NCBI RefSeq assembly: GCF_031583025.1
Contig: NZ_CP134062.1
Location: forward strand, 806,001-870,000
Length of the DNA: 64,000 nucleotides
Origin: Mycobacterium sp. Z3061
GTDB lineage: Bacteria > Actinomycetota > Actinomycetes > Mycobacteriales > Mycobacteriaceae
Direction: 5' to 3'
The notes beneath the pieces were generated by a model. That model had not been told where the DNA came from, did not search any database, and was given only the letters and a program-made list of their open reading frames with translations. Both the position numbers and the translations under genes were made by a program. Shown here piece by piece: positions 23,091 through 37,674 of this stretch. Positions within the stretch are counted from its first letter, which is position 1; every line of letters starts with the position of its first letter.

Positions 23091-23121
23091 GCGCCTCGCG
23101 GCCAAGTTGTCCGGGACCGGA

Positions 23122-24321
23122 CTAAGTGCTCCTTCGCTCTATCCTGTGCCCCAAGTCGTCTAGTTCGTCGAGTACAAGGCTTGCACCCCATACCTGGTCT
23201 CGTTTTCGGTCAGTTAATGGGCGTAGAACGCCGGTGGTATGCAGTCTTTTGATCGCGGCGAACACACTGCTTCGAGGTGCATCGACAAGTGATGCGACGT
23301 CGTCGGACGAAACGATCGGCATCGACGGCAAGAGCAGGAGTAGTTTGTCGGTCGCGCTGTTACGCCTAAGCGGTCCGACCATGTGTCGCCACTCAACTGG
23401 TATCTCAGCCAAACGCTCTGCACTGGTGCGTGATTCGGCGGCAGCAGTCTTTGATGAGCTCGCGAATGTGACGATGAGCGGGCGTAGGTCACCGGCGCGA
23501 TATGCGTTGAGCGCCCCGAAGTAGCGCTCTCGGTGAGCAACAAGCGCCGATGCCAGCGGGACGACGAGGCGCGTTGTTGCGCCCCTCCGCCTGAAGATCG
23601 TGTTGATGACTGCTCGGCCGATGCGACCGTTGCCGTCGGTGAAGGGGTGGATTGATTCGAACTGTGCATGCGCGATGGCGGCCTGAATCAGAACGGGAAT
23701 GTCTGTTCGGTTCGCGAACGCCACCAGGTCGTCCATGTACGCGGGCACCGTGTCTGGCGGTGGCGGAACGTACAACGCGTTTCGCGGCGAGTAGTCGCTC
23801 CCGCCGATCCAATTCTGGACCGTCCTTATCTGACCAGCTTGCTGCCCCTCTATCGGGTCTTCTCGCATCAGCGCCTCATGTGCGCGCAAGATCGCGGACT
23901 TCTGTACGGGCGCCCCTCGATCGACGCTGGCGATCATTTCGTGCAGGGCGGTGGTCGCTGCCACCATCGAGACCGCGCTCGAATTGCTTCTTCCGCCGTG
24001 CAACGCGCGTGCGTAGTCGTCCAGGCTCGCCTCAACGCGCTCAATTTTTGAAGACGCCACCGATTCTGTTCGAAGTAGGAGAGTGCTGAGCGCTGCGAGG
24101 TGCGTTCCGTGCGTGCTGTCGAGGCGAGAAATCTCGCTCATGGCGGCTTCGAGTTCGACAGCGGTACCCGTGTCGATGTTGGCGTCGATTTTGGCGATGT
24201 AAGGGGGAAGGGACACCCTGACAGAACGAAGTGTCCTGTCCTCGCGGGTGCCACCCCTTTGAGTCTGTGTCCACGGGCGTTGCTCTGCGCCGTGGCTGGG
24301 CCACGCAGATCCAGGTTGCAC
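23122..24321 (-). CDS. Fic family protein (AMPylator/deAMPylator type)
   Basis: Up to 399 residues. A Fic_N-type N-terminal region (about 35-120) contains SVASSKIERVEAS, resembling the inhibitory helix of class II Fic proteins. The Fic core has HPFTDGNGRIGRAVIN, an exact HPFx(D/E)GNGRxxR active site, and a C-terminal winged-helix-like part (about 310-370). Fic enzymes transfer AMP from ATP to Ser/Thr/Tyr of targets. The start is unsure: TTG 24321 gives the longest frame, while GTG 24216 (MSLPPYIAKIDANID) fits the usual family N-terminus. Base composition is AT-richer than the left neighbours, suggesting acquisition. No separate antitoxin gene is visible. Confidence 0.88.
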   Translation of the reverse strand: MQPGSAWPSHGAEQRPWTQTQRGGTREDRTLRSVRVSLPPYIAKIDANIDTGTAVELEAAMSEISRLDSTHGTHLAALSTLLLRTESVASSKIERVEASLDDYARALHGGRSNSSAVSMVAATTALHEMIASVDRGAPVQKSAILRAHEALMREDPIEGQQAGQIRTVQNWIGGSDYSPRNALYVPPPPDTVPAYMDDLVAFANRTDIPVLIQAAIAHAQFESIHPFTDGNGRIGRAVINTIFRRRGATTRLVVPLASALVAHRERYFGALNAYRAGDLRPLIVTFASSSKTAAAESRTSAERLAEIPVEWRHMVGPLRRNSATDKLLLLLPSMPIVSSDDVASLVDAPRSSVFAAIKRLHTTGVLRPLTDRKRDQVWGASLVLDELDDLGHRIERRST

Positions 24322-24330
24322 AGATGTCTC

Positions 24331-24366
24331 CTAACTCGGACTAACTATACCGATAGTCCGAGTTAG
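24331..24366. promoter_or_regulatory. Perfect 13-bp inverted repeat upstream of the Fic gene
   Basis: CTAACTCGGACTA (24331-24343) and TAGTCCGAGTTAG (24354-24366) are exact reverse complements separated by 10 bp. A partial third copy, TAGTCCGGGTTG, occurs near 24395-24406, and TCGGACTT near 24377-24384. The position just upstream of the Fic start suggests an operator, possibly bound by the Fic protein's own winged-helix part. A hairpin terminator is less likely because no T-tract follows on either strand. Confidence 0.6.
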
Positions 24367-24561
24367 GCCAATAAATCGGACTTTCGTGCGCGCTAGTCCG
24401 GGTTGCGAGAGCGACTCTCTGGATGTGCGCCGTCACCTCGGGCCCCGCCCGCTCGACCCTGGCTGATCAAGGAGGAGGTCCACACATCGGAGTAATGAAT
24501 GCGCTACGAGAGCTGAAATCGCCGAGACGGCTTACCTACGCGCATGTCCTAAGCCGTCATG

Positions 24562-24609
24562 TGGAGCCGATGACGGGAATCGAACCCGCGTATTCAGCTT
24601 GGGAAGCTG
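24562..24609 (-). pseudogene. 3' half of tRNA-Gly (CCC anticodon); probable attachment-site remnant
   Basis: Read on the minus strand, this segment has an anticodon loop TTCCCAA closed by CAGC/GCTG, the variable region, a full T-arm (GCGGGTTCGATTCCCGT) and the acceptor strand CATCGGC followed by TCCA. The matching 5' acceptor strand GCCGATG and a D-arm are absent from the adjoining bases (24610-24650), so the gene is truncated at the anticodon stem. Such 3' tRNA fragments are duplicated when integrases insert elements into tRNA genes. The CCA end points left, as expected for a junction with the element on the right. Confidence 0.8.
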
Positions 24610-25002
24610 CTCCGGCACACATGAGGGTGTTATCTGCGCGCGGGAACGCGCACAAGTGCGCGCGGATATGTGCAGGTCACGACGCTGCTGAGGACTTGGT
24701 GCGCACTCGTGAGCACCTGGTGAGCGTTGCCGGATACCTCACTAGCAAGCGACGAGATAGCGACAAGGCCAGCAAACACACCTACCGCCTGGCTGATCCG
24801 CCGCTTAGTCACGAGCTGATCGCCCCCCCACCCGCCCTGGCGTCTGTTGTGTACGGGTGGCTTGACGCACTGATGCGCAGGAACGCCCGCAAGTGGTGCG
24901 CCAACGCCCGCGTACACGCTGAGATACATTGTGCAACAACGAATTACGTCGAATATGGGCGTAGGATTGTGAGCAATTTGAGTTCCGAATCGAGGTAGGC
25001 GA
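24610..25002. other. Gene-free stretch between the tRNA remnant and the capsid gene
   Basis: No convincing gene is seen. A + strand frame covering 24423-24998 is an artefact that reads through the tRNA remnant. The stretch has small repeats such as TGCGCG-6-CGCGCA (24635-24652) and overlapping GTGAGCACCTGGTGAGC (about 24710-24727), which could be integrase arm sites or regulatory elements. The capsid gene's ribosome site (GAGGTAGG) is at the right end. Confidence 0.4.
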
Positions 25003-26235
25003 GTGAACGCGACGAAGAGTGCACGAGAAGCCGCGAAGGCCGCAGCCCTAGCCGCTTGGCCGGTGTACGGTGCGACTGCGCCGGCGGGTCAGTACGGGAT
25101 CACCACCGCCGCTGAGATTGGACCGATACTGCGCACGCTGCGCGACCGCACCGACCTCATGGCCGTGTGGGCGGAGTTCAGCGAGCTACTCGACTTCTGG
25201 AACAAGGACCGCAAGAAGCTGACTGACCTGCTGAGCTTTCGCACAACTCTTGCGGGCGAAGCGGTGCCGCAAAACATCAGCCCCGCGTTGTTCCAGAAAG
25301 CAACTGAGCTTGGCGTTCCGCAAGCCGCTGGCGCGCCTGGTGATTCGCTGATGCTCGGCTATCAGTTCACCGATTACGACCTGGCGACGCGGCTCACTCG
25401 TTTGTTTCTGCGCGCAGCGGATGTCCGCCAAGTGCGGGCGCAAATGGACAACGTTCTCACCGGCGATGTGACGTTGACGACCGGAGAAATCCTCAAAGCG
25501 ATCTTCGGCAAGACACGCCGGAAGAATCCCGAAGGGTTCACCGTCTATGACCTCTACGACGGCGTTGCACCGGGACCGCCTGACTATCTCGGTCGGCAAT
25601 TCCCCACAGAGACAACGCACTACATCACCAGTGCCACCGAACAGGTAGACGCCGGGGACGCCGAGCACCTGATTGCATTGGTCACTCGCAAGGGGTTTAG
25701 CAAGGAGTCCGGCGCAACGCTTCTGCTGCTCTGCAACCCCGATGAAGGCGAACACGTCATGAGCTGGCGGGCTAATCAACCCTCGCGCCCGCCGGAGGGA
25801 AGCGAGACCATTGACGACGTGCCGAAGGCGCGTTGGGACTTCATTCCCAGCGAATCGCAGCCGCCGTATCTCAGTGGCGATGGTGGCGAACTGATCGGCC
25901 AACCCGTCGCCGGATCGTTTTACGACATTCCCGTCGTCGGTTCCTACGGCGAAGCACTGGTGATTCAAACCGATTACGTGCCCAGCGGTTACATCGCCGT
26001 CGTAGCGACCTACGGGCCAAACTCAGACCGCAACGTGGTGGGCTTTCGCGAGTGGCCCGAGGCGAGTCAACAGGGCTTGCTGCTGATGCCCGGCAACTGG
26101 CAGGGCGTACCGCTGATCGAGTCGTTTGCGACGCGCGGCTTTGGAACCGGCGTGCGGCGACGTGGCGGCGCGGCGGTCTGCCAGATCACGACGAACCCGG
26201 CCTATACCGCGCCGAACTTCGTTACGAGCCGATGA
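25003..26235 (+). CDS. Predicted HK97-type major capsid protein
   Basis: The 410-aa protein starts at GTG 25003 after GAGGTAGGCGA. The C-terminal 120 residues carry the pattern I associate with actinobacterial phage capsid proteins: YVPSGYIAVVATYGPNS, a VVGFREW segment, LLLMPGNWQGVPLIESF and RGFGTGVRRRGGAAVCQI, like the P-domain/C-terminus of HK97-fold coats. The helical N-terminus could act as a delta or scaffold domain, as no separate scaffold or protease gene is seen. It heads a four-gene set with small basic proteins. Identification is by pattern, not by a search. A portal, large terminase or tail gene is absent. Confidence 0.6.
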   Translation: MNATKSAREAAKAAALAAWPVYGATAPAGQYGITTAAEIGPILRTLRDRTDLMAVWAEFSELLDFWNKDRKKLTDLLSFRTTLAGEAVPQNISPALFQKATELGVPQAAGAPGDSLMLGYQFTDYDLATRLTRLFLRAADVRQVRAQMDNVLTGDVTLTTGEILKAIFGKTRRKNPEGFTVYDLYDGVAPGPPDYLGRQFPTETTHYITSATEQVDAGDAEHLIALVTRKGFSKESGATLLLLCNPDEGEHVMSWRANQPSRPPEGSETIDDVPKARWDFIPSESQPPYLSGDGGELIGQPVAGSFYDIPVVGSYGEALVIQTDYVPSGYIAVVATYGPNSDRNVVGFREWPEASQQGLLLMPGNWQGVPLIESFATRGFGTGVRRRGGAAVCQITTNPAYTAPNFVTSR

Positions 26236-26498
26236 GCACGTATCGCTGTCGCGGTTTGCCGCCGTGGGTTGCCGACGCGATGGACGACGCCCAGCGCGAC
26301 CCCAGACCCGTCGCGCCGCCTGATCAGCTTGCGGCGGCGCTGCGTGGCGAGCATGCGCGTGTCGGTCCCGGCGAGTTAAGCGGTGACGCGGGCCAGCCGC
26401 GTCATTATCAGCCGATCACGACGGGGGAAGCACGCGTGAAGGTCAACCGGGCCACCGTGGGCAAGCCCGATGGTCCGTCGATCAAGCTGGCCGACTGA
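26232..26498 (+). CDS. Small unknown protein coupled to the capsid gene
   Basis: ATG 26232 overlaps the capsid stop (ATGA), suggesting translational coupling. The 88-aa product (MSTYRCRGLPPWVADAMDDA...) is hydrophilic, proline-rich in the middle and ends TVGKPDGPSIKLAD. I do not recognise a family. The location fits a minor virion or head-completion protein, but nothing in the sequence proves this. Confidence 0.6.
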   Translation: MSTYRCRGLPPWVADAMDDAQRDPRPVAPPDQLAAALRGEHARVGPGELSGDAGQPRHYQPITTGEARVKVNRATVGKPDGPSIKLAD

Positions 26499-26509
26499 AA
26501 GGCACCAGC

Positions 26510-26626
26510 ATGGCGAGCAAGAAGCAACACGCCGCGCGAGCACGATTCAAACGAGCCGCAAAGGCTGGTAGAGGCAAGGTCGGTCAGCGCGCGAAAAGCA
26601 CTGCGCGGCAAAGCAGGAAGCGGTAG
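26510..26626 (+). CDS. 38-aa highly basic miniprotein
   Basis: The short frame MASKKQHAARARFKRAAKAG... ends in TARQSRKR. It has 17 Arg/Lys and 11 Ala residues in 38 and no acidic residue. ATG 26510 is 11 bp after the previous stop with GAAAGG upstream, and the stop is 4 bp before the next ATG, so it fits the gene string exactly. The composition suggests nucleic-acid binding, for instance DNA condensation inside a capsid, but this is inference from composition and position. Confidence 0.55.
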   Translation: MASKKQHAARARFKRAAKAGRGKVGQRAKSTARQSRKR

Positions 26627-26630
26627 TGCT

Positions 26631-26888
26631 ATGGCGAAACGGCGCAATTATAAGCGAGACCGCAAAGGCAGGTTCGCATCCACCGGCAGTTCAAGCGCCA
26701 AACGCGTCGCGCGCAAGATCAAGAAGCGTCGGCCACGGTATGTCCGTGGCTCGTTGGGTAGCACAGTAAGGCTTGGACGTGTCGGACCAGGGCGTGCGTA
26801 CTACGGCGTCTCGGCGGGTGCGAAGCTACACACGCGCAAGCGCGCTGAGTACTACGTCGGTCTGAGCGCAGGTCGCAGGATCGCTTAG
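26631..26888 (+). CDS. 85-aa basic phage-type protein
   Basis: ATG 26631 follows AGGAAG. The product starts MAKRRNYKRDRKGRFASTGS; the 'RDRKGRFA' motif is common in phage head-associated and MuF-type proteins. It is rich in Arg/Lys and Tyr/Gly throughout (SLGSTVRLGRVGPGRAYYGV). It is probably a structural or DNA-binding partner of the capsid protein. It is the last gene before a GC-rich hairpin, so the capsid transcript likely ends here. Confidence 0.6.
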   Translation: MAKRRNYKRDRKGRFASTGSSSAKRVARKIKKRRPRYVRGSLGSTVRLGRVGPGRAYYGVSAGAKLHTRKRAEYYVGLSAGRRIA

Positions 26889-26969
26889 CGGTGACGGTGC
26901 ACTCTTACGAATTGTCCTGGTGGACAACATTTTTCGGCCTGCTACGGAAAGAGTAGCTGGCAGTGAAAA

Positions 26970-26996
26970 GCCCCGGCGGGGGATGCCCGCCGGGGC
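26970..26996 (+). terminator. Intrinsic terminator-like hairpin after the capsid gene set
   Basis: GCCCCGGCGGG (26970-26980) and CCCGCCGGGGC (26986-26996) form a perfect 11-bp stem with a 5-nt loop, about 80 bp after the last small gene. No T-run follows, which is usual for mycobacterial terminators. It separates the structural set from the replication set. Confidence 0.65.
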
Positions 26997-27710
26997 CGAG
27001 TGGGCGGTTACCGCCCGAAGTAAATGATGAAGGTTAGAACTAGCTGGCTACTCGAGACTGCCAGCTGCAGCAGCGCCACCAGCTGGGATTTTTGCCCCAC
27101 CTCCCTCTCCTCTCTTTAGTCGGACCCTGTTCCTGGGAACAGGCACGCGTCACCGCGACGCGTCCGTGGGTCCAACTTTTGAGTTGAGGTCGAGCTGGTC
27201 TTCGAGAGACCGCCACCACTTCGGTGGGGAACATCAACTTAGCGGACCGCAACAGTGATCCGCCATAGCGCAAAACTGTGATCCACATCACATTTACCAG
27301 CATCTTGCTATCGCCGGGCCCAGGTTTCGCGGACTCGAGCATTTCGCGTGCATGGTGTTCTAGACGGCCACCGCCGTCGCCGTAGGGCCTTGGCGTCCAC
27401 GGCATGTACGGACGCAAGAGCGCGGCCGCGTTGATTGACGGTCGTCGATCCATCGCACCGGAACAAGCGGAAATAGTATGGAATCGGAAATGCAACGCGA
27501 TCCGCGTGATCTGAATAATGGAGTCGTAACTTCTCGTGCTGCAATTCACTGGACTAAATCAATTAAGACCACAATAAAAATATCGGCCTTAGGCGGAAAT
27601 GCGATTGTTGGTGTTGCGGTCGCGCTTACGGGCGCTCATAGTGGAATTAGATGGGCAGGGGCGGCAGTCGGGCTGCTCCGCAGCGCCCCAATTCCGAAGG
27701 AAATCACTGC
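26997..27710. other. Gene-poor stretch between capsid and excisionase gene sets
   Basis: About 700 bp with no gene I can support. Open frames on the minus strand (27040-27549) and + strand (27478-27762) lack ribosome sites, recognisable domains and sensible composition. The bases around 27470-27600 are markedly AT-rich and probably hold the promoter for the excisionase-to-primase transcript. An undetected small repressor gene or an untranslated RNA cannot be excluded. GTTCCTGGGAACAGG (about 27129-27143) contains a short palindrome. Confidence 0.4.
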
Positions 27711-28028
27711 ATGTCACGCAATACCGATGCTGCGTCCATCACGGTGGCGGGTCGCCCCCTAACCGTTGACGAGCAGGACGAACGATCCAAGTATTCTGCG
27801 ATTCCCAATATCCCAGGCGTCGACGGCGCGGTGGCATTCATAGCCACAGACTTAAGAATCGAAGTGACCCCGCACTATCTGCGCCGCGCGATCACGCAGC
27901 GCAGGCTTGCGCGCCACGAGATCGGTCACAAGATTCATTTCTCCGCACGCGATCTGTATGACTTTATTGTCTTGGGCACGCGCAAAACGGAAGAACGCAT
28001 CAGCGCGGATGCAAAGGCCAGTGCATGA
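27711..28028 (+). CDS. Excisionase-like helix-turn-helix protein
   Basis: ATG 27711 follows AAGGA. In the 105-aa product, 'VTPHYLRRAITQRRLARHEI' followed by KIHFSARDLYDFIV has the layout of the MerR/AlpA-type winged helix of excisionases (HTH_17): helix-turn-helix, 'beta wing', then helix. Such proteins bend DNA at attachment sites to steer a tyrosine integrase toward excision, or switch on element genes. It begins a run of genes overlapping by 4 bp (ATGA), so it is probably made with the replication protein. Confidence 0.7.
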   Translation: MSRNTDAASITVAGRPLTVDEQDERSKYSAIPNIPGVDGAVAFIATDLRIEVTPHYLRRAITQRRLARHEIGHKIHFSARDLYDFIVLGTRKTEERISADAKASA

Positions 28029-28243
28029 CGACGATTCGCGGTGTCACCGACTCCCAGGCTCGCGCGCGTCAATCTCGCGCTCGTCATGAACTGGAGGCGA
28101 TTCAACGCCAGGACGCCGAGAGATTCGCCGCTGTCGTCAACGCGTTAGCGCAGTCCGATGCGATCCCGCGCTACATGCGAGGTATCTACGCACAAACCAT
28201 CTGCGGTCACAAACCCCCACTGAGGAAAGGCGAAATCCCATGA
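28025..28243 (+). CDS. 72-aa unknown protein
   Basis: The start overlaps the excisionase stop (ATGA). The product is strongly helical and charged (TDSQARARQSRARHELEAIQ), possibly a short coiled coil, and ends in a Gly/Lys-rich segment. I recognise no family. It overlaps the next gene by 4 bp, so it belongs to the same transcript and is likely translated. Confidence 0.55.
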   Translation: MTTIRGVTDSQARARQSRARHELEAIQRQDAERFAAVVNALAQSDAIPRYMRGIYAQTICGHKPPLRKGEIP

Positions 28244-29034
28244 CGTACAAACCCCAACTTGCACAGGTCGATCAACCCATGCACGACGAAGCCCGCCAGC
28301 GTATCCACGACGCGACACGCCATTGCATCGACAGTCCAGCGTTTGCGACGCCTTTGGCTGCAACTGAGGAACAAGTACAAACAATCTTGCGAGGGTGGCT
28401 AGAAACCCAAGCGGTCGAGGACCGCTTTTATGAAAAGCATCCTGAATTGCGGTGGTTCCAACTGCTGCAACCGGTTTCAGACGCGTTGCGCCGACCCGCC
28501 GATAAGGCCGCTGCCGCGTTCCAGGTAGCGACCGCACCGGGACTTCCGGCCATAGTCGCCACGTGCGATCCCAATCACGAACCATGGGTGCTGCACAGTG
28601 CTGAGGACTTCGACCGCGCGATGGACGCTATCGCAGGCGAAATACACTGCGATTTCAGGCTTTTTAGTCCGACAGTGATCGGCGGTCAACGCTACGCCTC
28701 GTGCGAGGAATGGTACCGCCGCCATCTTTCCTTCACGAAGGGCGCCGATGGATCAAACGGCGAACTTCAACGCAAATTCTTCGAACAGAATTTCGTCACG
28801 CTGCCGATAGCGCGCGGGGATCTAGTGATACTGTCGCGAGTCTGCTGCTGGTGTGTTGGCCTGTTTCTTAAACAGAACGCCATTGATCCGACCGGATGCG
28901 TTGTGGACGAACCGTATTCGGATGGTTTCGGTGATCTGGGGTGGAAAATGACTGCGCCGCCGGCCGCCGAGGAATCATTTGGTGAGCCGCCCGAGGATTC
29001 GATTTACGAGACCGACATCGAAGACACGACTTAA
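28240..29034 (+). CDS. 264-aa unknown protein of the replication gene set
   Basis: ATG 28240 overlaps the preceding stop. The protein is soluble, with a charged helical N-terminus (about residues 1-80), an alpha/beta-looking middle ('DFRLFSPTVIGGQRYASCEE'), a cysteine cluster VCCWCVG (about residue 204) and an acidic tail (EDSIYETDIEDTT). I do not recognise a domain. Its place just before the primase-polymerase gene suggests a role in replication or its control. Confidence 0.6.
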   Translation: MTYKPQLAQVDQPMHDEARQRIHDATRHCIDSPAFATPLAATEEQVQTILRGWLETQAVEDRFYEKHPELRWFQLLQPVSDALRRPADKAAAAFQVATAPGLPAIVATCDPNHEPWVLHSAEDFDRAMDAIAGEIHCDFRLFSPTVIGGQRYASCEEWYRRHLSFTKGADGSNGELQRKFFEQNFVTLPIARGDLVILSRVCCWCVGLFLKQNAIDPTGCVVDEPYSDGFGDLGWKMTAPPAAEESFGEPPEDSIYETDIEDTT

Positions 29035-29044
29035 CACCGACCGA

Positions 29045-31390
29045 ATGGCGAAGCCCCGGCTCGTAAACGAGGGAAAACGAGTCGGGGCGCAGCTCGCCAC
29101 AGACGGAAGCAAGCTAGGAATGACTGTACAGGCCGGTTACGAAGAATCTGGCCCGCAATTGCCCACGCCGATTGCCGACGCTGCGCTGAACTATGCGAGT
29201 GGCGGCATTCCTATCGTCGTATTCGACGCCAGTCGTGGAAACCATAAGCAGTGCGGAAACCTGATCGGCGACTCAGACGACGCAGCGAACTGGTATCAGA
29301 ACGTCACTGCCGATCCGGCTGTCATTAGAAGGTGGCTGCGAAATTTCGGCCCGTGCGCGACCGGTATAGCGACCTCACCGGGTGCCGCCGATGCTGTCGT
29401 GCTTGACGTCGACAAACCCGAGTTGGTGCCTGCGCCCTGGTGGCCGTTGTTGGACTCCGCGCCGTTTCACAGCACCGACAAGGTCGACGCCCGACGCGGC
29501 CACTATTGGTTTGATCTTCCACCCGGCGAGCGGTTCGGCAACCTTGAGTTTGAATGGGGCGAAATCCGATGCGACGGCGGCGGCTTAATCCTGTCGCCGA
29601 CACCCCACGCCAGAGAAGGCGGACGCTACCAGTGGATTCGTCAGGGCGAGACACCACGATTGCCGGAGCTGATCGCCGCCGAACTGCGCGCAAAAGCTAA
29701 TCGCCAGGGCGGGTGTGTGCCGATCACCGTCACCGACGCCGACGTGGCTTCGTTCACCGCCGCTCACACCACCGGCACCCGCCCTGGCGCGCTGAGACCC
29801 ATTGTGGCCCGTGTCGCTGAGGCACAGAGCGCGACCCGCAACGTTGCGCGTGATGCGCTGTGTCAGGCCGCGCGCGAAGCTCGGATAGGCAGGTTCGCGT
29901 GGTCGACAGCACGCGATGCCATCGAGGTAGCAGCGCGCACATCTTACGAGCGGCGCGGAAAGCCATTCGATGCTGCCGATTTCGTGCGCTGCGAGCACTA
30001 CGCGATCACACAAGCTCTGGCGTTGTCGCCCGATGAGATTGCCGCACGTGCTGACCGGTCACCGGGCACAGATACCCGCAAGCCCGAAACGATGGAATCG
30101 CTCGACAAAGTGTATGAAGCGATTAGCGGCAGTAAACCGCCCGAGCAGACACCGCGAGAAGAATCTGACGATTCGAGCAGAAACGGCTTGGAACCGGACC
30201 ACAGCAACGATGCAGATTACAACAACGCTGTCGAGGCGTTGGTGCGTCGAATCCGTATCCGCGACGAGGCGCGGAAACTCATCGCCCGCGAACAGTGGAA
30301 TGAACCTGACGAGCAAGGTGACCTGGCGTATCAGGTTGATCACCCCGAACCTGATCTCGGCTACCTTGTTGACGGGTTGATTCCGGCACGCGGCTTCGTC
30401 TTGATCAACGCTCAATACAAGGTGGGCAAGTCGACGCTGGCATCGGTCAACCTCACGCGCGCGCTGGTCACTGGAAAGCCGTTCCTGCGAAGGTTTTCCA
30501 CGAACCTCGGCAGCGGCGAGAACGTCGCAATCTGGAACCTCGAAGTCGATCAGGGCACACTCGCTGGCTGGCTTCAACAGAGCGGGATCGACCGTGAGGC
30601 GCAGAGACGTGTATTCCCACTGTGTTTGCGCGGCAACCGGTCCATTGATCTCGACAATGACATCGCCGCCGAATGGACGGTGCGCTGGCTAGCTAGCCGC
30701 AATATTGCCGTATGGGTGATTGATCCGCTGAGCAAGCTCTACCGTGACGACGAGCAAGACAATAGCGCGTTCAATCGGTGGTGGCTGGTGGTCGAAGACA
30801 TCGCCACCCGCGCGGGCGTTCGGGTGATCGTGCTTGTGCACCACACCGGCCACGACGAGAACAGCGCGGACCGAGCGCGCGGCGCGAGCGCGATGATGGG
30901 CAACCCCGACGTACTTGTTACCTACCGGCACGCCGGTCGTCACGGCGGGTTGCCACCAGATGACAAGAGGTATTTGGCCGCATTCGGTCGCAACGTTGCC
31001 GTGCGTGAATTCGAAATCGACTACGACGCCGCGACCCATGAGCTTTTTGCCACCGGCAGCGGCACAACTCGGGCAGATGCCGCGCGGCGCAAGTCAGCCG
31101 TTCGCGTCTGGGAACACCTACACCGACAGGGTGTGCCCGTCGCCAAGACGGCCTTGCTCGATGCGGTCAGGTTGGCATCAACAGGCAAAGGCATGGGCGA
31201 GTCGAATGACGTTCTGACCTACGCCGAGCAGCAAGGCTGGATCGTCATGACTCCCAACGGGCGAAGCAAGCTGTATGCAACCGGTCCATCGTCGCCGCCT
31301 ATGACTGAGCGGTCGGCCGTTTCGCTGATGGGCGGCACGAACGGTGGGCCGATTACTCTGCCGCAGAGGAACTCAAAAAATGTACCGTGA
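29045..31390 (+). CDS. Primase-polymerase/helicase replication protein
   Basis: ATG 29045 lies 10 bp after the previous stop and is preferred over a GTG at 28979 inside the upstream gene. The roughly 781-aa protein has an N-terminal Prim-Pol-like domain (about residues 35-220): a DVDKP metal-binding acid motif, 'DARRGHYWFDLPPGERFGNL' and the GGGLILSPTPH loop. A linker follows, then a RecA/DnaB-like ATPase (about 440-680) with Walker A NAQYKVGKSTLA and Walker B VWVIDPLSKLY. Small mobile elements use such fusions to start and unwind replication at their own origin. A TTCACC repeat cluster just downstream is the likely origin. Confidence 0.8.
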   Translation: MAKPRLVNEGKRVGAQLATDGSKLGMTVQAGYEESGPQLPTPIADAALNYASGGIPIVVFDASRGNHKQCGNLIGDSDDAANWYQNVTADPAVIRRWLRNFGPCATGIATSPGAADAVVLDVDKPELVPAPWWPLLDSAPFHSTDKVDARRGHYWFDLPPGERFGNLEFEWGEIRCDGGGLILSPTPHAREGGRYQWIRQGETPRLPELIAAELRAKANRQGGCVPITVTDADVASFTAAHTTGTRPGALRPIVARVAEAQSATRNVARDALCQAAREARIGRFAWSTARDAIEVAARTSYERRGKPFDAADFVRCEHYAITQALALSPDEIAARADRSPGTDTRKPETMESLDKVYEAISGSKPPEQTPREESDDSSRNGLEPDHSNDADYNNAVEALVRRIRIRDEARKLIAREQWNEPDEQGDLAYQVDHPEPDLGYLVDGLIPARGFVLINAQYKVGKSTLASVNLTRALVTGKPFLRRFSTNLGSGENVAIWNLEVDQGTLAGWLQQSGIDREAQRRVFPLCLRGNRSIDLDNDIAAEWTVRWLASRNIAVWVIDPLSKLYRDDEQDNSAFNRWWLVVEDIATRAGVRVIVLVHHTGHDENSADRARGASAMMGNPDVLVTYRHAGRHGGLPPDDKRYLAAFGRNVAVREFEIDYDAATHELFATGSGTTRADAARRKSAVRVWEHLHRQGVPVAKTALLDAVRLASTGKGMGESNDVLTYAEQQGWIVMTPNGRSKLYATGPSSPPMTERSAVSLMGGTNGGPITLPQRNSKNVP

Positions 31391-31407
31391 CCTGCAAATA
31401 TGCATTC

Positions 31408-31587
31408 TTCACCAATACGGTGAAAGAACACCCGTTCACTATGGACAAATCGGGCGGTCGTCTTCACCGACATTTTCACCGCCTGAGCAGGCATTCTTCA
31501 CCATTCTTCACTCACCTTCACCATGTGCGGTGAAACAGTTTCACCACGCCTATATAGGACGAAGTCCTATAGGCGGTGAAGCTTCAC
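31408..31587. repeat. TTCACC/GGTGAA iteron-like cluster, candidate replication origin
   Basis: Within about 180 bp, TTCACC occurs at 31408, 31463, 31475, 31497, 31517 and 31540, its complement GGTGAA at 31419, 31529 and 31575, with near copies TTCACT at 31435 and 31507 and TTCACG at 31583. The stretch is non-coding and lies between the primase-helicase gene and the next gene. Clusters of short direct repeats next to a replication protein gene typically bind that protein at the origin. The role is inferred from arrangement. Confidence 0.7.
31553..31571. promoter_or_regulatory. Inverted repeat inside the iteron cluster
   Basis: TATAGGAC (31553-31560) and GTCCTATA (31564-31571) are exact inverted copies 3 bp apart, extended by imperfect CCTATA/TAGG flanks. 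It is the most AT-rich spot of the cluster and may be the unwinding or primer site, or an operator for the gene starting at 31649. Confidence 0.5.
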
Positions 31588-31648
31588 GACAGTCGCGATT
31601 CGAGATGACCAGTGACCAAAGCGGCTGCGAATTAGGAGAATTCGGGTA

Positions 31649-32089
31649 GTGACGACGAACGTTCTTCCGCTGTCGTTGCGGCCCGCGTTGATCTGCGAAT
31701 CGTGCTGGAAAATCATTCGCGGCGATGACGGCTACTTGCGCGTATCGACGCTGGACGCCAAACGCAGACTCATCGAACCGTCACGAAATCTCTCGGTAGT
31801 GCGGTGGCGAATCATTCACCGCAAGTGTGACCGCGAAGTCATTCCGACACTCAGCCCCGATTTTTTGATCTGGGCATCACAACTCGAGACATCGAACGAT
31901 CTGGCGCAAATCACCGCCGATCTGATGGAACAGAAATGGATTTTTGCGACCAACTGGTCAGCGACGGTGCGGCGCATCCTCGCCGATACAAACCGCTACG
32001 CCGACGAGAAACGCAACTACGCCGGGCGCAAGACGCGAAAACGACGCAGTTACAACACAAATCAATCGACAGTCGAATCAGCCGAATAA
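31649..32089 (+). CDS. 146-aa protein with a possible zinc-binding motif
   Basis: GTG 31649 follows TTAGGAGAA. The product carries CESCWKII (CxxC, residues 16-19) and IIHRKCDRE (His/Cys, about residues 56-59), a spacing compatible with a zinc-binding knuckle, and a basic C-terminus (RNYAGRKTRKRRS). I recognise no named family. Its position directly after the presumed origin suggests a DNA-binding or replication-control role. Confidence 0.55.
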   Translation: MTTNVLPLSLRPALICESCWKIIRGDDGYLRVSTLDAKRRLIEPSRNLSVVRWRIIHRKCDREVIPTLSPDFLIWASQLETSNDLAQITADLMEQKWIFATNWSATVRRILADTNRYADEKRNYAGRKTRKRRSYNTNQSTVESAE

Positions 32090-32105
32090 AACGAAGGGAA
32101 CGATG

Positions 32106-32822
32106 ATGACCGATGCATCGAACAACGCACCCATGGAAGCGTTTGACAGGGGCAACCCGGCGCGCCGTTGCACGGCGCATCGCGGAAACGGCGACCGATG
32201 CCGCAAGTGGGCAATCCGAGGTGGGACGGTGTGCGCCACCCACGGCGGGCGAGCCAAGCAGGTTCGCGAGAAAGCGCAGCGACGGCTGTCCGAAGCGGCT
32301 GACCGGATGGCAAAAGCACTGCTGGGCATGGCGACTGACGCCAACGTGAGCGAAACCGTGCGACTGGCCGCGATCAGGGACGCGCTGTCGCGAGCTGGCG
32401 TCACCGAGAAACAAGCAATTGAGGTCGAAGTCGGCCCAAGCAAGCCGTATGAAGCGATTCTCGAACGCCTCGCCAGTGGCGGAAGCCGTGCCGAGTGGCG
32501 GCGCTCGCAAGGCTTCCCAGACGACACACCACCCGCCCTGGCGGCTGCCGATCCCGACGCCGTGGTCGACGCCGAGATCGTCACTGAGAGCGATCAACAG
32601 ACCTACGCCCATCCGATGACGCCAGTCACCGACGATTGGCAGCCAGACGAGCCGCTGGGCAGCAGTTTCGATCCTTTGGGCCGAAGCGATTCACCGCCCG
32701 ACGAACTCTTGACCTTGAATGAAGCCGTGATCCGCGCGGCTGCGATGAACAGCATGGCGACGGCGGGGCATGCAAGGCTGCACCGACCGCAGCGAGCTTT
32801 GCCGCCTGGCCGGTCGGGATGA
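32106..32822 (+). CDS. Phage-type 'CTAH...HGG' protein, possibly packaging-related
   Basis: ATG 32106 (or the adjacent ATG 32103) follows AAGGGA. The 238-aa product has a cysteine/histidine N-terminus, RRCTAHRGNGDRCRKWAIRG then GTVCATHGGRAKQV (a likely zinc site), a helical segment 'SEAADRMAKALLGMATDANV', and a disordered acidic C-terminus. Proteins of this pattern recur in actinobacterial phages and integrated elements, and I suspect a small-terminase-like or DNA-binding role, without proof. The N-terminal pattern is clear; the function is inference. Confidence 0.6.
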   Translation: MTDASNNAPMEAFDRGNPARRCTAHRGNGDRCRKWAIRGGTVCATHGGRAKQVREKAQRRLSEAADRMAKALLGMATDANVSETVRLAAIRDALSRAGVTEKQAIEVEVGPSKPYEAILERLASGGSRAEWRRSQGFPDDTPPALAAADPDAVVDAEIVTESDQQTYAHPMTPVTDDWQPDEPLGSSFDPLGRSDSPPDELLTLNEAVIRAAAMNSMATAGHARLHRPQRALPPGRSG

Positions 32823-32951
32823 GTCGCAAATCTTTAGTTGTGAGACGACGCCCCGGTGTCGCGACGGCTCGCTCAAAGCCCTGTTCGGCATGTCTCAGAA
32901 GATGTTTCAAAAGCGTGTGTACGTAAGCGGCGTTTTGCGACTTATGAGACA
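32822..32951. promoter_or_regulatory. res-like recombination site upstream of the serine recombinase
   Basis: The gap between two genes contains three copies of a GTCTCA core: TTGTGAGACG (32838-32847), TGTCTCAGAA (32891-32900) and TTATGAGACA (32942-32951), plus the inverted pair AGTCGCAAA (32822-32830) and TTTGCGACT (32934-32942). TGTCTCATAA, the complement of the last, resembles the TGTCYRATAA half-sites of Tn3-type res sites. Its position directly before the recombinase gene is the usual res arrangement. Confidence 0.55.
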
Positions 32952-32959
32952 ATGGAACG

Positions 32960-33559
32960 ATGACCGCACCTACCGTCACCGGCACCGCGCTTGGCTATGT
33001 CCGCGTATCGACCGGACATCAGTCGCTTGACGCCCAAGTCGACGCGCTGGCATCCGAAGGCATTGCAGCAGAACGTATTTACCGCGACAAGCTGACGGGT
33101 ATGTCAACCCGCGAGCAACGCCCTGGCCTAGCAGCTCTGCTCGACTACGCCCGTCCCGGCGACGTGATCACCGTGGTCGGTATCGACCGCTTGGGTCGCA
33201 ACGCTGCCGAAGTCATGACCACGATTCGAGACCTGAACGCACGCGGAATCGTGCTGCGATCCCTGCGTGAAGGTATTGACACATCCAACGCCACGGGACG
33301 CATGATTGCCGGGGTGCTGGCGAGCTTGGCTGAGCTGGAATTGGAGCTAGGTCGCGAGCGCCGCAGTGCAGCGCGTGAAGCACGGCGCGCGCGCGGCCAG
33401 TCAATCGGACGACCGAAGGCACTCGATGAATCGAAGGCCGCACTAGCTCGGCGCATGCATGCGGCAGGCGAACCGGTTTCCACCATTGGCAGCACGCTCG
33501 GCGTCAGTCGTGCGACGGTGTATCGAGTGCTCGCAGAACAGACCGAGGGGGAATCGTGA
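32960..33559 (+). CDS. Serine recombinase (resolvase/invertase family)
   Basis: The 199-aa protein has the catalytic N-terminal domain (GYVRVSTGHQSLDAQVDAL, with nucleophilic Ser in RVST; GIDRLGRNAAEV; 'TSNATGRMIAGVLASLAELE') and a C-terminal Hin-type helix-turn-helix (GEPVSTIGSTLGVSRATVYR). Its size is that of small resolvases/invertases, not large serine integrases. With a tyrosine integrase present, it more likely resolves element dimers or flips a segment. Three half-site-like repeats lie just upstream. The stop overlaps the next gene's start by 4 bp. Confidence 0.92.
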   Translation: MTAPTVTGTALGYVRVSTGHQSLDAQVDALASEGIAAERIYRDKLTGMSTREQRPGLAALLDYARPGDVITVVGIDRLGRNAAEVMTTIRDLNARGIVLRSLREGIDTSNATGRMIAGVLASLAELELELGRERRSAAREARRARGQSIGRPKALDESKAALARRMHAAGEPVSTIGSTLGVSRATVYRVLAEQTEGES

Positions 33560-34038
33560 CTACGGAGAAGGTGCGCACGCAGATCATCGGCGCAGCCGGT
33601 GAAGCACTGGTGACCTACAAACTTTTGAAGCGTGAAATCGACAGTGCGCGAATGACAACCGATGCCGGTGTCGATCTAGTCATGTATATCCCCGGCATCG
33701 AAGGTGCCGCGACGATTCAGGTCAAAGCGCAGTGGGAACCGGTACCAGCAGGCGGCACGGGAGCGCCGCAATGCTCGTGGGTTTTCGACCGAGATTGTCC
33801 AGCGGATTGGTTGGCGGTCGTTGATCTGTCGCGCGATGTGGCTTGGATGTTTGAGATGCAACAAGCTCGCACACTTGCGCAGCAGAAACCGGACAGCGGC
33901 AAGTGGCGAATTTACTGGTACGCCGACAACGCGAAGGTAAGCGGCAATCCCCGCCGCGAGTCGGACATGGCGGCATACGAAATAGACGTCGTTGTGAAAG
34001 GCATCAAAGTCAGTGAAAACGTTGAACCGAGAGGCTGA
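33556..34038 (+). CDS. PD-(D/E)XK-like nuclease-fold protein
   Basis: The 160-aa product starts at GTG 33556, overlapping the recombinase stop. It has IIGAAGEALVTYKLLKR (helix with Glu), TDAGVDLVMYIP (Asp) and ATIQVKAQWEP (QxK), the order and spacing of a PD-(D/E)XK core as in Holliday-junction resolvases and intron-associated endonucleases. The C-terminal half (WVFDRDCPADWLAVVDLSRD) matches that style too. It is embedded between two recombinase genes, suggesting branched-DNA processing or a small restriction-like activity. Confidence 0.65.
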   Translation: MTTEKVRTQIIGAAGEALVTYKLLKREIDSARMTTDAGVDLVMYIPGIEGAATIQVKAQWEPVPAGGTGAPQCSWVFDRDCPADWLAVVDLSRDVAWMFEMQQARTLAQQKPDSGKWRIYWYADNAKVSGNPRRESDMAAYEIDVVVKGIKVSENVEPRG

Positions 34039-34041
34039 TTG

Positions 34042-35436
34042 ATGCACATTCGCACCCGCAATTCACGTCGCCGCGTCAACGGCAAGCCGCTCAAGCGATA
34101 CGAAGCCACTTGGATCGAAGACGGCACCCGCCACACTGAGACGTTCGACACCCGCGAAGCCGCACAAAACAAGCTCGATGACGTGAAAACGCTTCTGTCG
34201 AAAGGGCAGTCACCGGCAAACCTGCGCGAGCTGGGATCGGCAACATTCGCGGACGTGGCGGCGCAATGGTTGGCGAGTCGCCACGACTTGAAGCCGCGCA
34301 CCCGCGCCGAATACACCAATCTGCTGGCCGACAAAACGAGAGCGCGTCGCACCCGTTCGGGTGAATCGACTGCTGACCTGTCGATTGCTTCGACATTCGG
34401 TCACCGCCCAGTCAATGAAATTCGCCGTGCTGATGTGGCCGATTGGGTGGGTGCACTGACGAAAGCCGGCAAGTCGGTCTCGACGGTGAGGCATCATTAT
34501 TTCGTTGTGCGACAGGTGCTTTCGCAGTGCGTGGCCGATGGACGGCTCATGGCCAACCCCACCGACCATGTGAAATTGCCGACCGAGCGAAACCTGTCAG
34601 GCGGCACGCCCGGCGTGGTAGACGATCCGTCGCAGTTCCTCACCGCTGCACAAGTCGGTGCGCTGGTCAGCGCCACGCCCTGGCCGTGTGCGGTGGTGGT
34701 GCACCTTGCCGCGTGGTCGGGTCTGCGTGCCGCCGAGCTGGCGGGGCTCTGCATCGGTGACATTGCCTGGCCGGTTAACCCGAACGGCACGGTGTGGCTC
34801 TCTGTTGAGCGCACGGTAATCGAGTCGGGCGGCGGACTGGTCTACGACACGACCAAGACCAAGGGCAGCGAGCGCCGGGTACCGCTGACGGCGGCGACTG
34901 CGGACATGCTGCGCGACTACCTAGCCGGTCACCCGCGTCGAGACGAGCCGACTGCGCCGCTGTTCTGTGCGGTGACGCTGAAACCGTCGAAGCCGACCGG
35001 CAAGCGCGCCAGCGAGCAGCCGTTGACCGCTGCGGTCAAAGCGCAGCGCCAGGCCACCGCCCTGGCGGATTTGAGCGTGGATGAGGCTGCTGCCCGCCTG
35101 GTGCTGGATTGGTCGGGGTTGCTGCGGCATCAGTCGTTCTACAAGTCGGTGTTCCGGCCAGCGGTGCTTCGGTCGAATCGGCTGGCCGGTGACACGGTGA
35201 TTCCGACAGAAATCACGTTCCATTCGCTTCGGCACACGTACGCCAGCTTGTGCGTTGCGGCTGGGATCGGGGCTGACAAGTTGAGCCGTCGTCTAGGGCA
35301 CGCCAAGATCACCACAACGTTAGACATCTACACGCATTTGTTCCCCGACGACGACGCCAGCGGCGACATGGCCGCGCTGGAAGCGATGAGCCAGCCAACC
35401 GCGCCCAACGTGGTGCCGATGCGGCGTAGGGGTTAG
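34042..35436 (+). CDS. Tyrosine-type site-specific integrase
   Basis: The 464-aa protein begins at ATG 34042 (a TTG lies one codon upstream), 4 bp after the nuclease-like gene. It has the N-terminal arm-binding domain (KRYEATWIEDGTRHTETFDT), a core-binding SAM-like domain ('ADVAAQWLASRHDLKPRTRA', RRADVADWVGAL), and the catalytic domain with AAWSGLRAAELAGL (Arg I), HSLRHTYASL (His-x-x-Arg) and LGHAKITTTLDIYTHLF (His/Trp position and nucleophilic Tyr). Integrases of this type insert elements at tRNA 3' ends. The tRNA-Gly remnant at 24562 is the probable left junction. Confidence 0.95.
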   Translation: MHIRTRNSRRRVNGKPLKRYEATWIEDGTRHTETFDTREAAQNKLDDVKTLLSKGQSPANLRELGSATFADVAAQWLASRHDLKPRTRAEYTNLLADKTRARRTRSGESTADLSIASTFGHRPVNEIRRADVADWVGALTKAGKSVSTVRHHYFVVRQVLSQCVADGRLMANPTDHVKLPTERNLSGGTPGVVDDPSQFLTAAQVGALVSATPWPCAVVVHLAAWSGLRAAELAGLCIGDIAWPVNPNGTVWLSVERTVIESGGGLVYDTTKTKGSERRVPLTAATADMLRDYLAGHPRRDEPTAPLFCAVTLKPSKPTGKRASEQPLTAAVKAQRQATALADLSVDEAAARLVLDWSGLLRHQSFYKSVFRPAVLRSNRLAGDTVIPTEITFHSLRHTYASLCVAAGIGADKLSRRLGHAKITTTLDIYTHLFPDDDASGDMAALEAMSQPTAPNVVPMRRRG

Positions 35437-35618
35437 TGCCTTCCCCGAGAGAGAGATTCGACAAAGTCGAGCTCAGCTTCACCACGGTCGTCCCCACGCG
35501 AAAGGCGCTCTCGCACGTCCGCAGGAAGCATGTTTAGCATCGCTGCGCGACGGCGAGCAGATGACAACCGCGATGCGACGTCACCGTCAATCACTTTTTT
35601 CTCCCGTGTGGACCCCAT
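35433..35618 (-). CDS. 61-aa protein coupled to the Ntn-hydrolase-like gene
   Basis: ATG 35616-35618 is 3 bp after the stop of the upstream same-strand gene, a spacing typical of translational coupling, and its stop overlaps the integrase stop by 4 bp in convergent orientation. The product is charged and helical (SRLSSARRRAAMLNMLPADV, ending ELDFVESLSRGRH). I recognise no family. It might be an adaptor or inhibitor of the neighbour, which would be inference from coupling alone. Confidence 0.6.
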   Translation of the reverse strand: MGSTREKKVIDGDVASRLSSARRRAAMLNMLPADVRERLSRGDDRGEAELDFVESLSRGRH

Positions 35619-35621
35619 AAG

Positions 35622-36932
35622 TCACACCTTAGCACCGTGGCTGAGGTGCCAAGTAGGGTTTAAACGCGAGTCGAAATAGTGCTTCCGATTGATCCACACG
35701 AATCCATCGCCAATTGATATCAACGCCACGTCGATTGCTCCTCCTACTGTCTTGGTGTCCTGGACACTTACTCGCTGCTTTAATGCAGTGATGTTGACTA
35801 GGCTTTCCGCAAGAAACCCCAATTCGTCCTTTGGCAATACGGAGACGCTGTCTACTAACGGTTTCCAAGCCTCGTTATCCTGGTAGTCGTTCATATGGTC
35901 AAAGAAGTCAATCAGTTGGTTTCGCGCTAACTTCTGCACTTCTCGCGCGGCTTTTCTCCGTTGCGGCGGAGAAAATGTAGAATCGTTTTGAAGCTCAGCT
36001 ATCAGCGCGGGGGCAAGCAGCTTTTCGGTCCAATTTTCCCAATGATGGGCAATGACGTGCCGCACTTCGGAGCTAATGCCATATATCCATCCCATGGCCG
36101 GAGCATTTTGCGCGAAAGCTTCCAGATGCCCGCTAGTCTGAGTAGAGATATTGGTTTCATCGGGTTGCGTCGCCAGAACGCTGCCATCTAGTCGAGCCAC
36201 CAAACTGGATGAGACCAAGCTGGGAAAATACTCCTTCTGTCCGAAGCCCGCCAAGACTATTCCTGACTCATTCGGTGGATTGGTGTCCTTGGTGACCGCC
36301 ATCATGGTTAATTCATATAGACGTTTGCGTTGCGACACGAGAAAGGGCAAGTTGCCGTAATAGTGATCAACGTAGGCGATGATGTCTGACCCATATTTAG
36401 CTTTCAGTTGCGGCATATCGAGACCGAGCGGGCCGCCAAGGTCGTCGCGCTGATTCAGCAGGTTTTCCCAAAAATCAAGAAGTTCTGTCGCCACAGCCTT
36501 GAAGCGATTTTTATAAATGCGCCCTGCGGCTGTGACAAACTCTGCACTGCGAGAATTGAAGAGTCCGAATATCTGTTCAAGATGCCAATCAACTACGCCA
36601 AGCAGAACTCTTTGTTCGTCCGAAACTTGCAACAGATCTTGGTTTGCGGCGATGTATTCGATCAATTTTTGATAGTACTCGGCGACGGTGGGACCGACGA
36701 AAGAAGGATTGTCGTGCCGAAATGATTTTATGACCGTTTCCCAAGGTACGCCGTTAAGACTCGCGCTTGAGTAAATCATGACCCCGACGTTAGAGCCCTT
36801 TATAAGCTCAAAAAGCTTATTTGCACTTTCGTATGTTTTGAGGCTGGTTTGGCCTCTGCTCCGGATGGTGACTGCGCTGTCGGCAGCCAAGGCAACCGCA
36901 GACTTGTTCATTACTACTGCCTCGGCAGTCAT
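35622..36932 (-). CDS. Predicted Ntn-hydrolase related to HslV/proteasome subunits
   Basis: ATG 36930-36932 follows GGGGAAGAGG; 45 upstream in-frame residues are rejected. The 436-aa product starts [20 protein letters not shown]. After Met removal Thr1, Asp17 and the Thr21 position match HslV (TTIVSV...VVIAGDGQAT) residue for residue; a lysine in [10 protein letters not shown] would stand for Lys33, and '[17 protein letters not shown]' resembles the following strand/loop. The remaining roughly 330 residues are unlike proteasome subunits and mainly helical. It could be a self-contained threonine-type amidohydrolase or protease; the role is unknown. Base composition is AT-rich and foreign. Confidence 0.65.
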
Positions 36933-37674
36933 CGCGCCTCTTCCCCTCAGACGGTCTCGACGGCACCGTAGCGCGACGCGACGACACAATGTGGGAGAAA
37001 CGCGCAGGTGGGCCGCCTGCGACGAGCAAACAGCTTTTAGACCGACGTACCCCTGGGTGAACGACAAGGTAGCGACAAGTCTCTAGTGAAAGTACAGAGT
37101 TTTTGCGGTCGTAAGCCAGCTGAACTGCGCTTCCGCTGCCAGCCGAAGCGGAACCGCCGGAACCGCCCGCGCCACCGTTGCCGAACAGTCCCGCCGCGCC
37201 GCCATTGCCGCCTTGTTGCCCGGTCGGCCCGGAGGCACCGGACCCTCCGGCGCCGCCGTCGCCGAGCAACCAGCCGCCGGGCGAACCATTGAGTCCCGAC
37301 CCCGCTGGTGCGTTGGCGCCGTTGCCGATCAGTGGCCGCCCGGTGAGCGCCTGGATGGGCGAGTTCACAAAGTCCAGCGCGGCCGCCTGCGCGTTGGCGG
37401 CTTCGGCGCTGGCGTATGCGCCGGCGTTGCCGCTCAACAGCTGCATGAATTGGGCGTGAAATGACGCCGCTTGTGCGCTCAGGACCTGGTAGGCCTGCCC
37501 GTGCAGGCCGAACATCGCCGAAATCGCCACAGATATCTCGTCGGCACCGGCCGCGAGTACCGAAGTGGTGGGAATTGCTGCGGCGGCGTTGGCCTCGGTG
37601 AGCACCGACCCGATGCCCGCTACGTCGGATGCCGCCGCGGACAGCAACTCTGGCGCGACATTGAGAAACGACAC
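36817..37674 (-). pseudogene. Truncated PE_PGRS gene at the edge of the mobile region
   Basis: The start GTG 37672-37674 has GGGAGG upstream and encodes [20 protein letters not shown], a complete PE domain, then '[20 protein letters not shown]' and about 50 residues of PGRS repeats. Similarity stops near residue 182 (about 37129), after which the frame continues in non-PGRS sequence ([18 protein letters not shown]) and runs to 36817 inside the Ntn-hydrolase gene in another frame. The natural 3' end is missing, consistent with an insertion or deletion. In M. tuberculosis a PE gene (Rv0335c, PE6) also lies beside aspC. The PE part might still be expressed. Confidence 0.75.

Follow-up and report, generated by a model that had tools for sequence, protein, structure and literature searches.

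A compact candidate phage satellite in Mycobacterium sp. Z3061 encoding a major capsid protein and a small terminase homologue

A 64,000-nucleotide stretch of the genome of Mycobacterium sp. Z3061 (NZ_CP134062.1), hereafter the window, contains an integrated element of ~12.5 kb that extends from position 24561 to ~37130. The left part of the element holds the 3′ half of a tRNA-Gly(CCC) gene, a major capsid protein (MCP) gene, three small open reading frames (ORFs), an excisionase-like gene and two genes without assigned function; the right part holds a primase-polymerase (Prim-Pol)/AAA gene, an iteron cluster, an ORF, a homologue of the phage small terminase subunit (TerS), a serine resolvase gene, another ORF, a tyrosine integrase gene and a low-GC gene (Table 1). 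The GC content per kilobase is 0.51–0.65 over 24–37 kb of the window. An earlier description made from the letters of the window (the sequence-only reading) proposed a compact capsid-encoding satellite with its own replication module. The present analysis, which draws on 80 loci taken from the places with an MCP match in 396 Mycobacterium genomes, supports this proposal as the best fit, and the relatives agree with it.

Capsid, terminase and replication genes

The product of the 25003–26235 gene, predicted earlier to be a capsid protein, matches phrog_3990 ‘major head protein’ (E 5e-84) and the solved capsid chains 8giu (E 1.9e-69) and 8saj (E 3.3e-60). These chains come from the phages Patience and Adjutor, respectively, the capsids of which are T=7 with a varied HK97 fold (PMC10635136). 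The fold of the window MCP is assigned as HK97-like on the grounds of this homology because the AlphaFold models were too poor (pLDDT 33 in a run with four sequences); the HK97 fold on which the sequence-only reading depended is thereby upheld. Relatives of the MCP are present in 152 phage records, all below 60% identity, with the best at 38% among the matches listed.

The sequence-only reading overlooked the gene at 32103–32822, which encodes a homologue of the TerS of phages that carry the same type of MCP. Searches with the in-frame piece 32139–32822 or the ORF 31944–32822 identified phrog_10899 ‘terminase small subunit’ (E 1.6e-7). A TerS profile was then built from 69 family members, the window’s included. 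Among the Suzy, Patience and Cuke proteins tested, the sole gene matched was Patience gp3 (E 3e-15), which is annotated as terminase small subunit; the profile also matched Konstantine gp2 (1.3e-12) and a frame of the first gene of Send513 (8.6e-12), these E-values applying to sets of 101 and 13 sequences. Both Konstantine and Send513 carry an MCP of the window type, and Konstantine gp2 matches phrog_10899 at 1e-218. By tblastn, the Patience TerS directly matched 1 of the 80 loci. Conserved C, C, C and H positions in the TerS family suggest a zinc site, and the ratio of nonsynonymous to synonymous substitution rates (dN/dS) was 0.15–0.35 in 11 of 12 TerS pairs, the remaining pair being saturated. 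By homology, the MCP and the TerS of the satellite both go back to a single phage group, which points to that group as the partner.

In line with the claimed absence of portal, large terminase subunit (TerL), protease and tail genes, none of these families fell below E 0.05 among the element’s proteins in Pfam and PHROG scans. No head protease, connector or HNH family was matched in these proteins, several small ones of which match no family. The head gene set, said to be minimal, is indeed very small; its recognizable members, however, are MCP and TerS, not an MCP with three proven head partners. The three small ORFs that had been read as capsid partners are present, with relatives 3′ of other satellite MCPs, but their role in the head is putative. 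For the 38-aa microprotein, relatives lie 3′ of the MCP in 17 other loci; none was detected in five phages with an MCP of the same type, which were searched as stretches of 24–32 kb.

The Prim-Pol/helicase assignment was confirmed by Pfam, which identified both Prim-Pol and AAA_25 domains. The iteron-like repeats also stood up to scrutiny: nine TTCACC/GGTGAA copies lie within 31391–31600 against a resampled mean of 0.19, and a count of nine was reached in 0 of 2000 first-order resamples, for a motif selected after inspection of the sequence. The serine recombinase is supported by its Pfam match and the accompanying res-like site by an inverted repeat with 12-nt arms (32819–32830/32934–32945, 92% complementary), and Pfam and PHROG matches agree on the tyrosine integrase. 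The excisionase is weak in the window itself, but its family is found in 35 loci, the window included.

Between the integrase gene and the lost right end, at 35622–37067, the element carries the low-GC gene; relatives place other genes there. No defence model matched its protein, which has one partial relative, in locus L099. The predicted structure of the protein alone reached pLDDT 35, too low to be of use.

Table 1. Features of the Mycobacterium sp. Z3061 element in window coordinates; loci are those of the comparison set.
Position	Strand	Feature	Remarks
24561..24609	-	attL core, 49 bp, 3′ half of tRNA-Gly(CCC)	5′ half absent
25003..26235	+	MCP, Patience/Suzy type	HK97-like by homology to solved capsids
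26232..26498	+	88-aa ORF overlapping MCP stop	conserved in closest MCP clade; no PHROG family
26510..26626	+	38-aa very basic microprotein	15 K/R, no D/E
26631..26888	+	85-aa basic ORF	27 K/R, 2 D/E; relatives 3′ of MCP in other satellites
26970..26996	+	11-bp perfect inverted repeat 3′ of capsid genes	possible terminator
27651..28028	+	excisionase-like protein	start uncertain, perhaps 27711; phrog_1840 E 0.06
28025..28243	+	72-aa ORF	tblastn match in 6/80 loci
28240..29034	+	264-aa conserved satellite protein	family in 12 loci, window included
28979..31390	+	Prim-Pol/AAA_25 replication protein	start uncertain; Pfam 5e-14 and 4e-24
31391..31600	.	iteron-like cluster, 9 TTCACC/GGTGAA	candidate replication origin
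31649..32089	+	146-aa ORF	tblastn match in 3/80 loci
32103..32822	+	TerS homologue	C/H zinc-like motif
32819..32945	.	res-like inverted repeat 5′ of resolvase gene	putative res function
32960..33559	+	serine resolvase/invertase	Pfam 2.9e-34
33556..34038	+	160-aa ORF	family of 4 loci, window included
34039..35436	+	tyrosine integrase	Pfam 3.9e-17, PHROG 5e-56
35622..37067	-	low-GC gene (GC 0.51)	phrog_5990, function not annotated; between integrase and lost right end
37129..37133	.	right breakpoint, joins middle of PE_PGRS gene	~17.4 kb host DNA and right att gone

Relatives across Mycobacterium

An MCP match was detected in 93 of the 396 sampled Mycobacterium genomes, the window’s own included and some matches partial, and in 13 of 397 genomes of an order-wide sample, five of them outside Mycobacterium. 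A genome contig collection yielded three named relatives, in M. deserti, M. asiaticum and M. elephantis; viral contig scans with MCP and TerS found no relatives. The 80 loci leave out partial low-scoring places, the second copy of genome G082 and the copy of G305 (the latter two longer), and 21 of the 80 fall short of 20 kb at contig ends. Gene families were derived with a home-made ORF caller that misses small genes. Profile matches were obtained for TerS in 71 loci (68 as a whole-gene family; the profile came from loci later scanned with it), integrase in 69, primase/helicase in 70, resolvase in 54 and excisionase in 52. TerS, integrase and primase are found together in 62 loci, and 57 of the 59 loci with a full 20-kb stretch have a TerS match. 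Six control stretches gave no match to the TerS profile, the integrase profile or one Prim-Pol profile.

Sixteen loci have a tRNA gene and a partial copy around the MCP; two of these, L052 and L086 (~5–6 kb), were excluded. The other 14 relatives are bounded by an intact tRNA (Arg, Val, Gly, Leu or Met) and its partial copy, and span 8.9–15.0 kb; together with the element of genome G004, the median size is 12.5 kb over 15 elements. All 14 carry both the MCP and, within their bounds, a TerS match; integrase was matched in 13 of them. Of the 147 genes called in them, 144 were scanned, three of less than 60 aa being dropped. Family alignment scans of these elements covered the first 25 of 110 PHROG and of 49 Pfam families, and neither TerL nor portal was found in the 15 long proteins (at least 370 aa; non-core or unassigned primase) and five shorter ones that were scanned singly.

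TerL, portal, protease and scaffold of Suzy, Patience and Cuke matched 0 of the 80 loci. The TerL and portal negatives are strong because these queries match each other across the three phages at 38–52% identity; those for protease and scaffold are weak, since these queries either miss the other phages or match them poorly. Konstantine and Send513 gave the same picture: their TerL and portal matched phages only, and not one of the 80 loci. In these comparisons, as in the TerS profile search, the five phages were represented by stretches of 24–32 kb. By tblastn, the gp4, minor capsid and scaffold proteins of Patience also matched no locus, a weak test for small proteins, which diverge fast. In the 396 Mycobacterium genomes, Suzy TerL found no match at E 1e-10, and the same query matched 4 of 4 control phages with the same MCP type. 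A stretch of the Patience tape measure did match 221–236-aa genes in 5 of the 80 loci, which are not tape measures but probably host genes that share one domain. The N-terminus of the Suzy GDSL-type hydrolase, encoded near the portal, resembles that of a ~490-aa protein adjoining the MCP in two of the 80 loci (L115:10834-12309 and L083:11100-12587), perhaps a virion-associated enzyme. In the att-bounded locus L045, a gene for a ClpP/SDH-like protease weakly matches families of head proteases.

In a tree of 80 satellite MCPs (79 of the 80 loci plus the window; L109 dropped out of the MCP family) and 14 phage MCPs of the 152 records, a single branch separates the two sets (SH-aLRT 100). Another tree, with 39 satellites and 13 phages and built without four long rows and roughly half the satellites, reproduced the split at 100/100 and in 100% of 200 bootstrap trees. 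MCP dN/dS was 0.057–0.144 in 20 of 20 near pairs, ratios that are rough because several dS values exceed 1, and the satellite MCPs are under purifying selection.

These data bear on whether the elements are ordinary prophages that have decayed except for their genes for capsid, small terminase, replication and integration. There is damage to the window copy, an in-frame stop interrupts 8 of the 80 MCP matches, and L045 retains a TerS fragment and has no integrase match; some copies therefore do decay. Set against such a history are the joint recurrence of TerS, integrase and primase in 62 loci, the 14 elements with att repeats at both ends, and the single branch that separates the satellite MCPs, which, combined with purifying selection (dN/dS 0.06–0.14), argues against decaying prophages. 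Moreover, no prophage source was found, the matching TerL type being present in 0 of 396 genomes, and no TerL, portal or tail genes, or remains of them, were recognized in the element or in the 80 loci. We regard descent from decaying prophages as very unlikely.

Large DNA methyltransferases are encoded in two of the satellites (L058:10889-12655 and L101:5285-6979), and other restriction- or defence-like domains are present among the set. Such cargo, and the very small part of the head that is encoded, would fit a resident defence island that is inherited mainly vertically and uses its MCP and TerS to poison the head assembly and packaging of a helper. Yet the MCP is full length and strongly constrained. 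The elements also occupy a variety of tRNA genes, flanked by att repeats, and retain a replication module, both of which fit mobility. We regard a defence island as unlikely, if slightly less so than prophage decay.

Insertion site and later deletion

The truncated tRNA gene of the sequence-only reading was verified: the 49 bp at 24561–24609 match the 3′ part of the relatives’ tRNA-Gly(CCC) at every base. No tRNA or RNA family was detected in the window by ARAGORN or by Rfam at gathering thresholds. In genomes G009, G002 and G004, an intact tRNA-Gly(CCC) gene lies ~7–9 kb left of an aminotransferase gene, the same gene that flanks the window’s element. A genome of the same species, G006, aligns at ~97% over most of the left flank; the alignment stops at 24609, the last base of the 49-bp core, and restarts at 37133. 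Between these breaks G006 has ~17.4 kb that start with the 5′ half of the tRNA; its tRNA gene is intact and the site empty. The empty site and intact tRNA in a same-species genome indicate that the element inserted at tRNA-Gly(CCC) and that a later deletion took away host genes as far as the middle of a PE_PGRS gene, along with the right att site and the other half of the tRNA. The ends given by the sequence-only reading therefore coincide with the alignment breaks, but the right one is a deletion breakpoint and not an att site. Of the two att junctions present in 14 relatives, the window copy has the left one only; with a single att site, it should not excise by integrase and excisionase.

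A genome-wide search for the 3′ half of tRNA-Gly(CCC) with at most two mismatches identified no other place except two other glycine tRNAs, and no second tRNA-Gly(CCC) copy was found in the window’s genome. Because the deletion took the 5′ half and no other copy was found, GGG codons are probably read by another glycine tRNA. The gene adjoining the tRNA in relatives, which we take to be dcd, has no match in the window’s genome. At the breakpoint, a PE_PGRS gene (36817–37674, - strand) is truncated and runs on into foreign sequence. Immediately left of the att site lies a Fic-family gene (23122–24321, - strand; SoFic model of PADLOC, E 5.6e-67), which the same-species genome lacks there, with ~170 bp in place of window positions 23100–24348; this region is a second strain-specific difference, probably an insertion.

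Likely helper phages, proposed mechanism and known satellites

The Suzy and Patience TerL match PF03237, not PF03354; PF03354, which does not cover them, found no TerL in the host genome. The family phrog_2, presumably a TerL family, gave weak matches there (best E 2.6e-5), probably to other ATPases. Patience is a lytic phage (PMC7150772), and the genus yielded no TerL of the matching type; a virulent helper is therefore more likely than a prophage resident in the host. The likely helpers are virulent siphophages that share the head module, those of the Patience, Konstantine, Send513 or Suzy type. The element might instead make capsids independently of the named phages, with an unrelated temperate helper or as a compartment of its own. 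No helper was found and few TerL types were sought in the host genome, where PF03354 and Suzy TerL gave nothing and phrog_2 weak matches only; as MCP and TerS trace to the same phage group, however, that group is suggested as the partner, and we regard independence as very unlikely.

Taken together, we think it probable that the element is an integrated phage satellite of a lineage long apart from phages, that it needs a phage helper, and that the window holds a locked-in copy. From the relatives and their gene content, which define the working form of the element, we infer mobilisation, mixed virions, a small shell, and the origin and res functions. The tyrosine integrase would insert the element at the 3′ half of a tRNA gene, the Prim-Pol/helicase would replicate it from the iteron origin, and the serine resolvase would split multimers. 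The satellite TerS would bring the helper TerL to satellite DNA, and the satellite MCP would form a shell on the portal, scaffold and protease of the helper, which would also give connectors, tails and lysis. Head size may be set by the MCP or by the adjoining small basic proteins.

Several observations weigh against this satellite model. The window copy lacks the right att site and is probably immobile; its MCP and TerS genes lie on the same strand, unlike those of 61 of 68 relatives, which are on opposite strands. At 27–38% identity to known phage MCPs, the satellite MCPs may not assemble on the portal or scaffold of known phages. The MCP stops, the L045 locus, the rough dN/dS ratios and the weak protease and scaffold searches count in the same direction.

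A more specific version of the satellite model, which we put forward tentatively and hold to be somewhat doubtful, is coat swapping: the family would parasitise virulent phages by supplying MCP and TerS alone, giving mixed virions that use the portal, scaffold, protease, TerL and tail of the helper and have a head size set by the satellite MCP, and the small basic proteins would perhaps replace the hexamer-bridging gp4 of the phage. A T=7 head with a lambda-sized genome, scaled to T=3, would hold ~13.6 kb, close to the median of 12.5 kb; the T=3 estimate based on Patience or Adjutor is 18–20 kb, and the size fit is only suggestive. If coat swapping is true, virulent phages would carry DNA between mycobacteria even though these yielded no matching prophage. 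An MCP match is present in about a quarter of the sampled Mycobacterium species genomes; if the elements behind these matches are satellites of virulent phages, they provide a path for gene flow that has been overlooked and probably contribute to phage resistance in the genus. The minimal head set offers a clean test of an MCP redirecting capsid size on the assembly parts of another virus, and a solved capsid of the likely helper type already exists.

Staphylococcus aureus pathogenicity islands (SaPIs) encode Int, Xis and a primase or replication protein, and remodel helper capsids with scaffold-like factors, bringing no MCP. Like pac-type SaPI-like elements, the present element has its own TerS homologous to phage TerS; those elements have no capsid gene and redirect size in a scaffold-like manner, whereas an MCP is present here. 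A satellite TerS that redirects helper packaging follows SaPI logic (PMC10690885); relative to it, the new part is that the satellite brings an MCP and nothing else recognizable of the head beyond TerS.

Candidate phage-inducible chromosomal islands (PICIs) have been described across Mycobacterium and are defined by an integrase and an MCP; the Int-Y examples lie at tRNA genes, some carry helicase and terminase genes, and phage induction is stated as not yet shown (PMC10654092). Small capsid-encoding integrated elements, phiRv1 and phiRv2 of M. tuberculosis, are grouped there with PICI-like elements. With its tyrosine integrase and MCP gene, the present element belongs, as far as that text defines it, to this published kind; att junctions at both ends are shown for the four examples of that study and are not part of its definition. 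The passages of that study on candidate PICIs describe no MCP-plus-TerS-only lineage, separation from phage MCPs or missing helper-type TerL, and no satellite lineage with MCP and TerS alone was described in the literature searched, which did not include supplements or most subscription journals.

The MCP of Patience and Adjutor is homologous to that of the satellites, as is the Patience TerS to theirs; both are full phages of 64–71 kb with T=7 heads, the gp4 bridging protein and minor capsid proteins (PMC10635136, PMC7150772). The Streptomyces satellites MulchRoom and MiniFlayer are likewise actinobacterial; they, too, bring capsid genes of their own, and their helpers are virulent. Their gene set includes TerL, TerS, portal, scaffold and adapter and no recognizable primase, whereas the Mycobacterium family has a primase and no recognized TerL, portal, scaffold or adapter (PMC10690885). 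Capsid-forming PICIs resemble the element in encoding capsid and TerS themselves, with helper tails presumed. They are described as encoding MCP, protease, portal, connectors, large and small terminase and HNH (PMC10690885); in the element, MCP and small terminase were recognized, and portal and large terminase were not. Measured against that description, the MCP-plus-TerS-only lineage is a variant unlike the capsid-forming PICIs.

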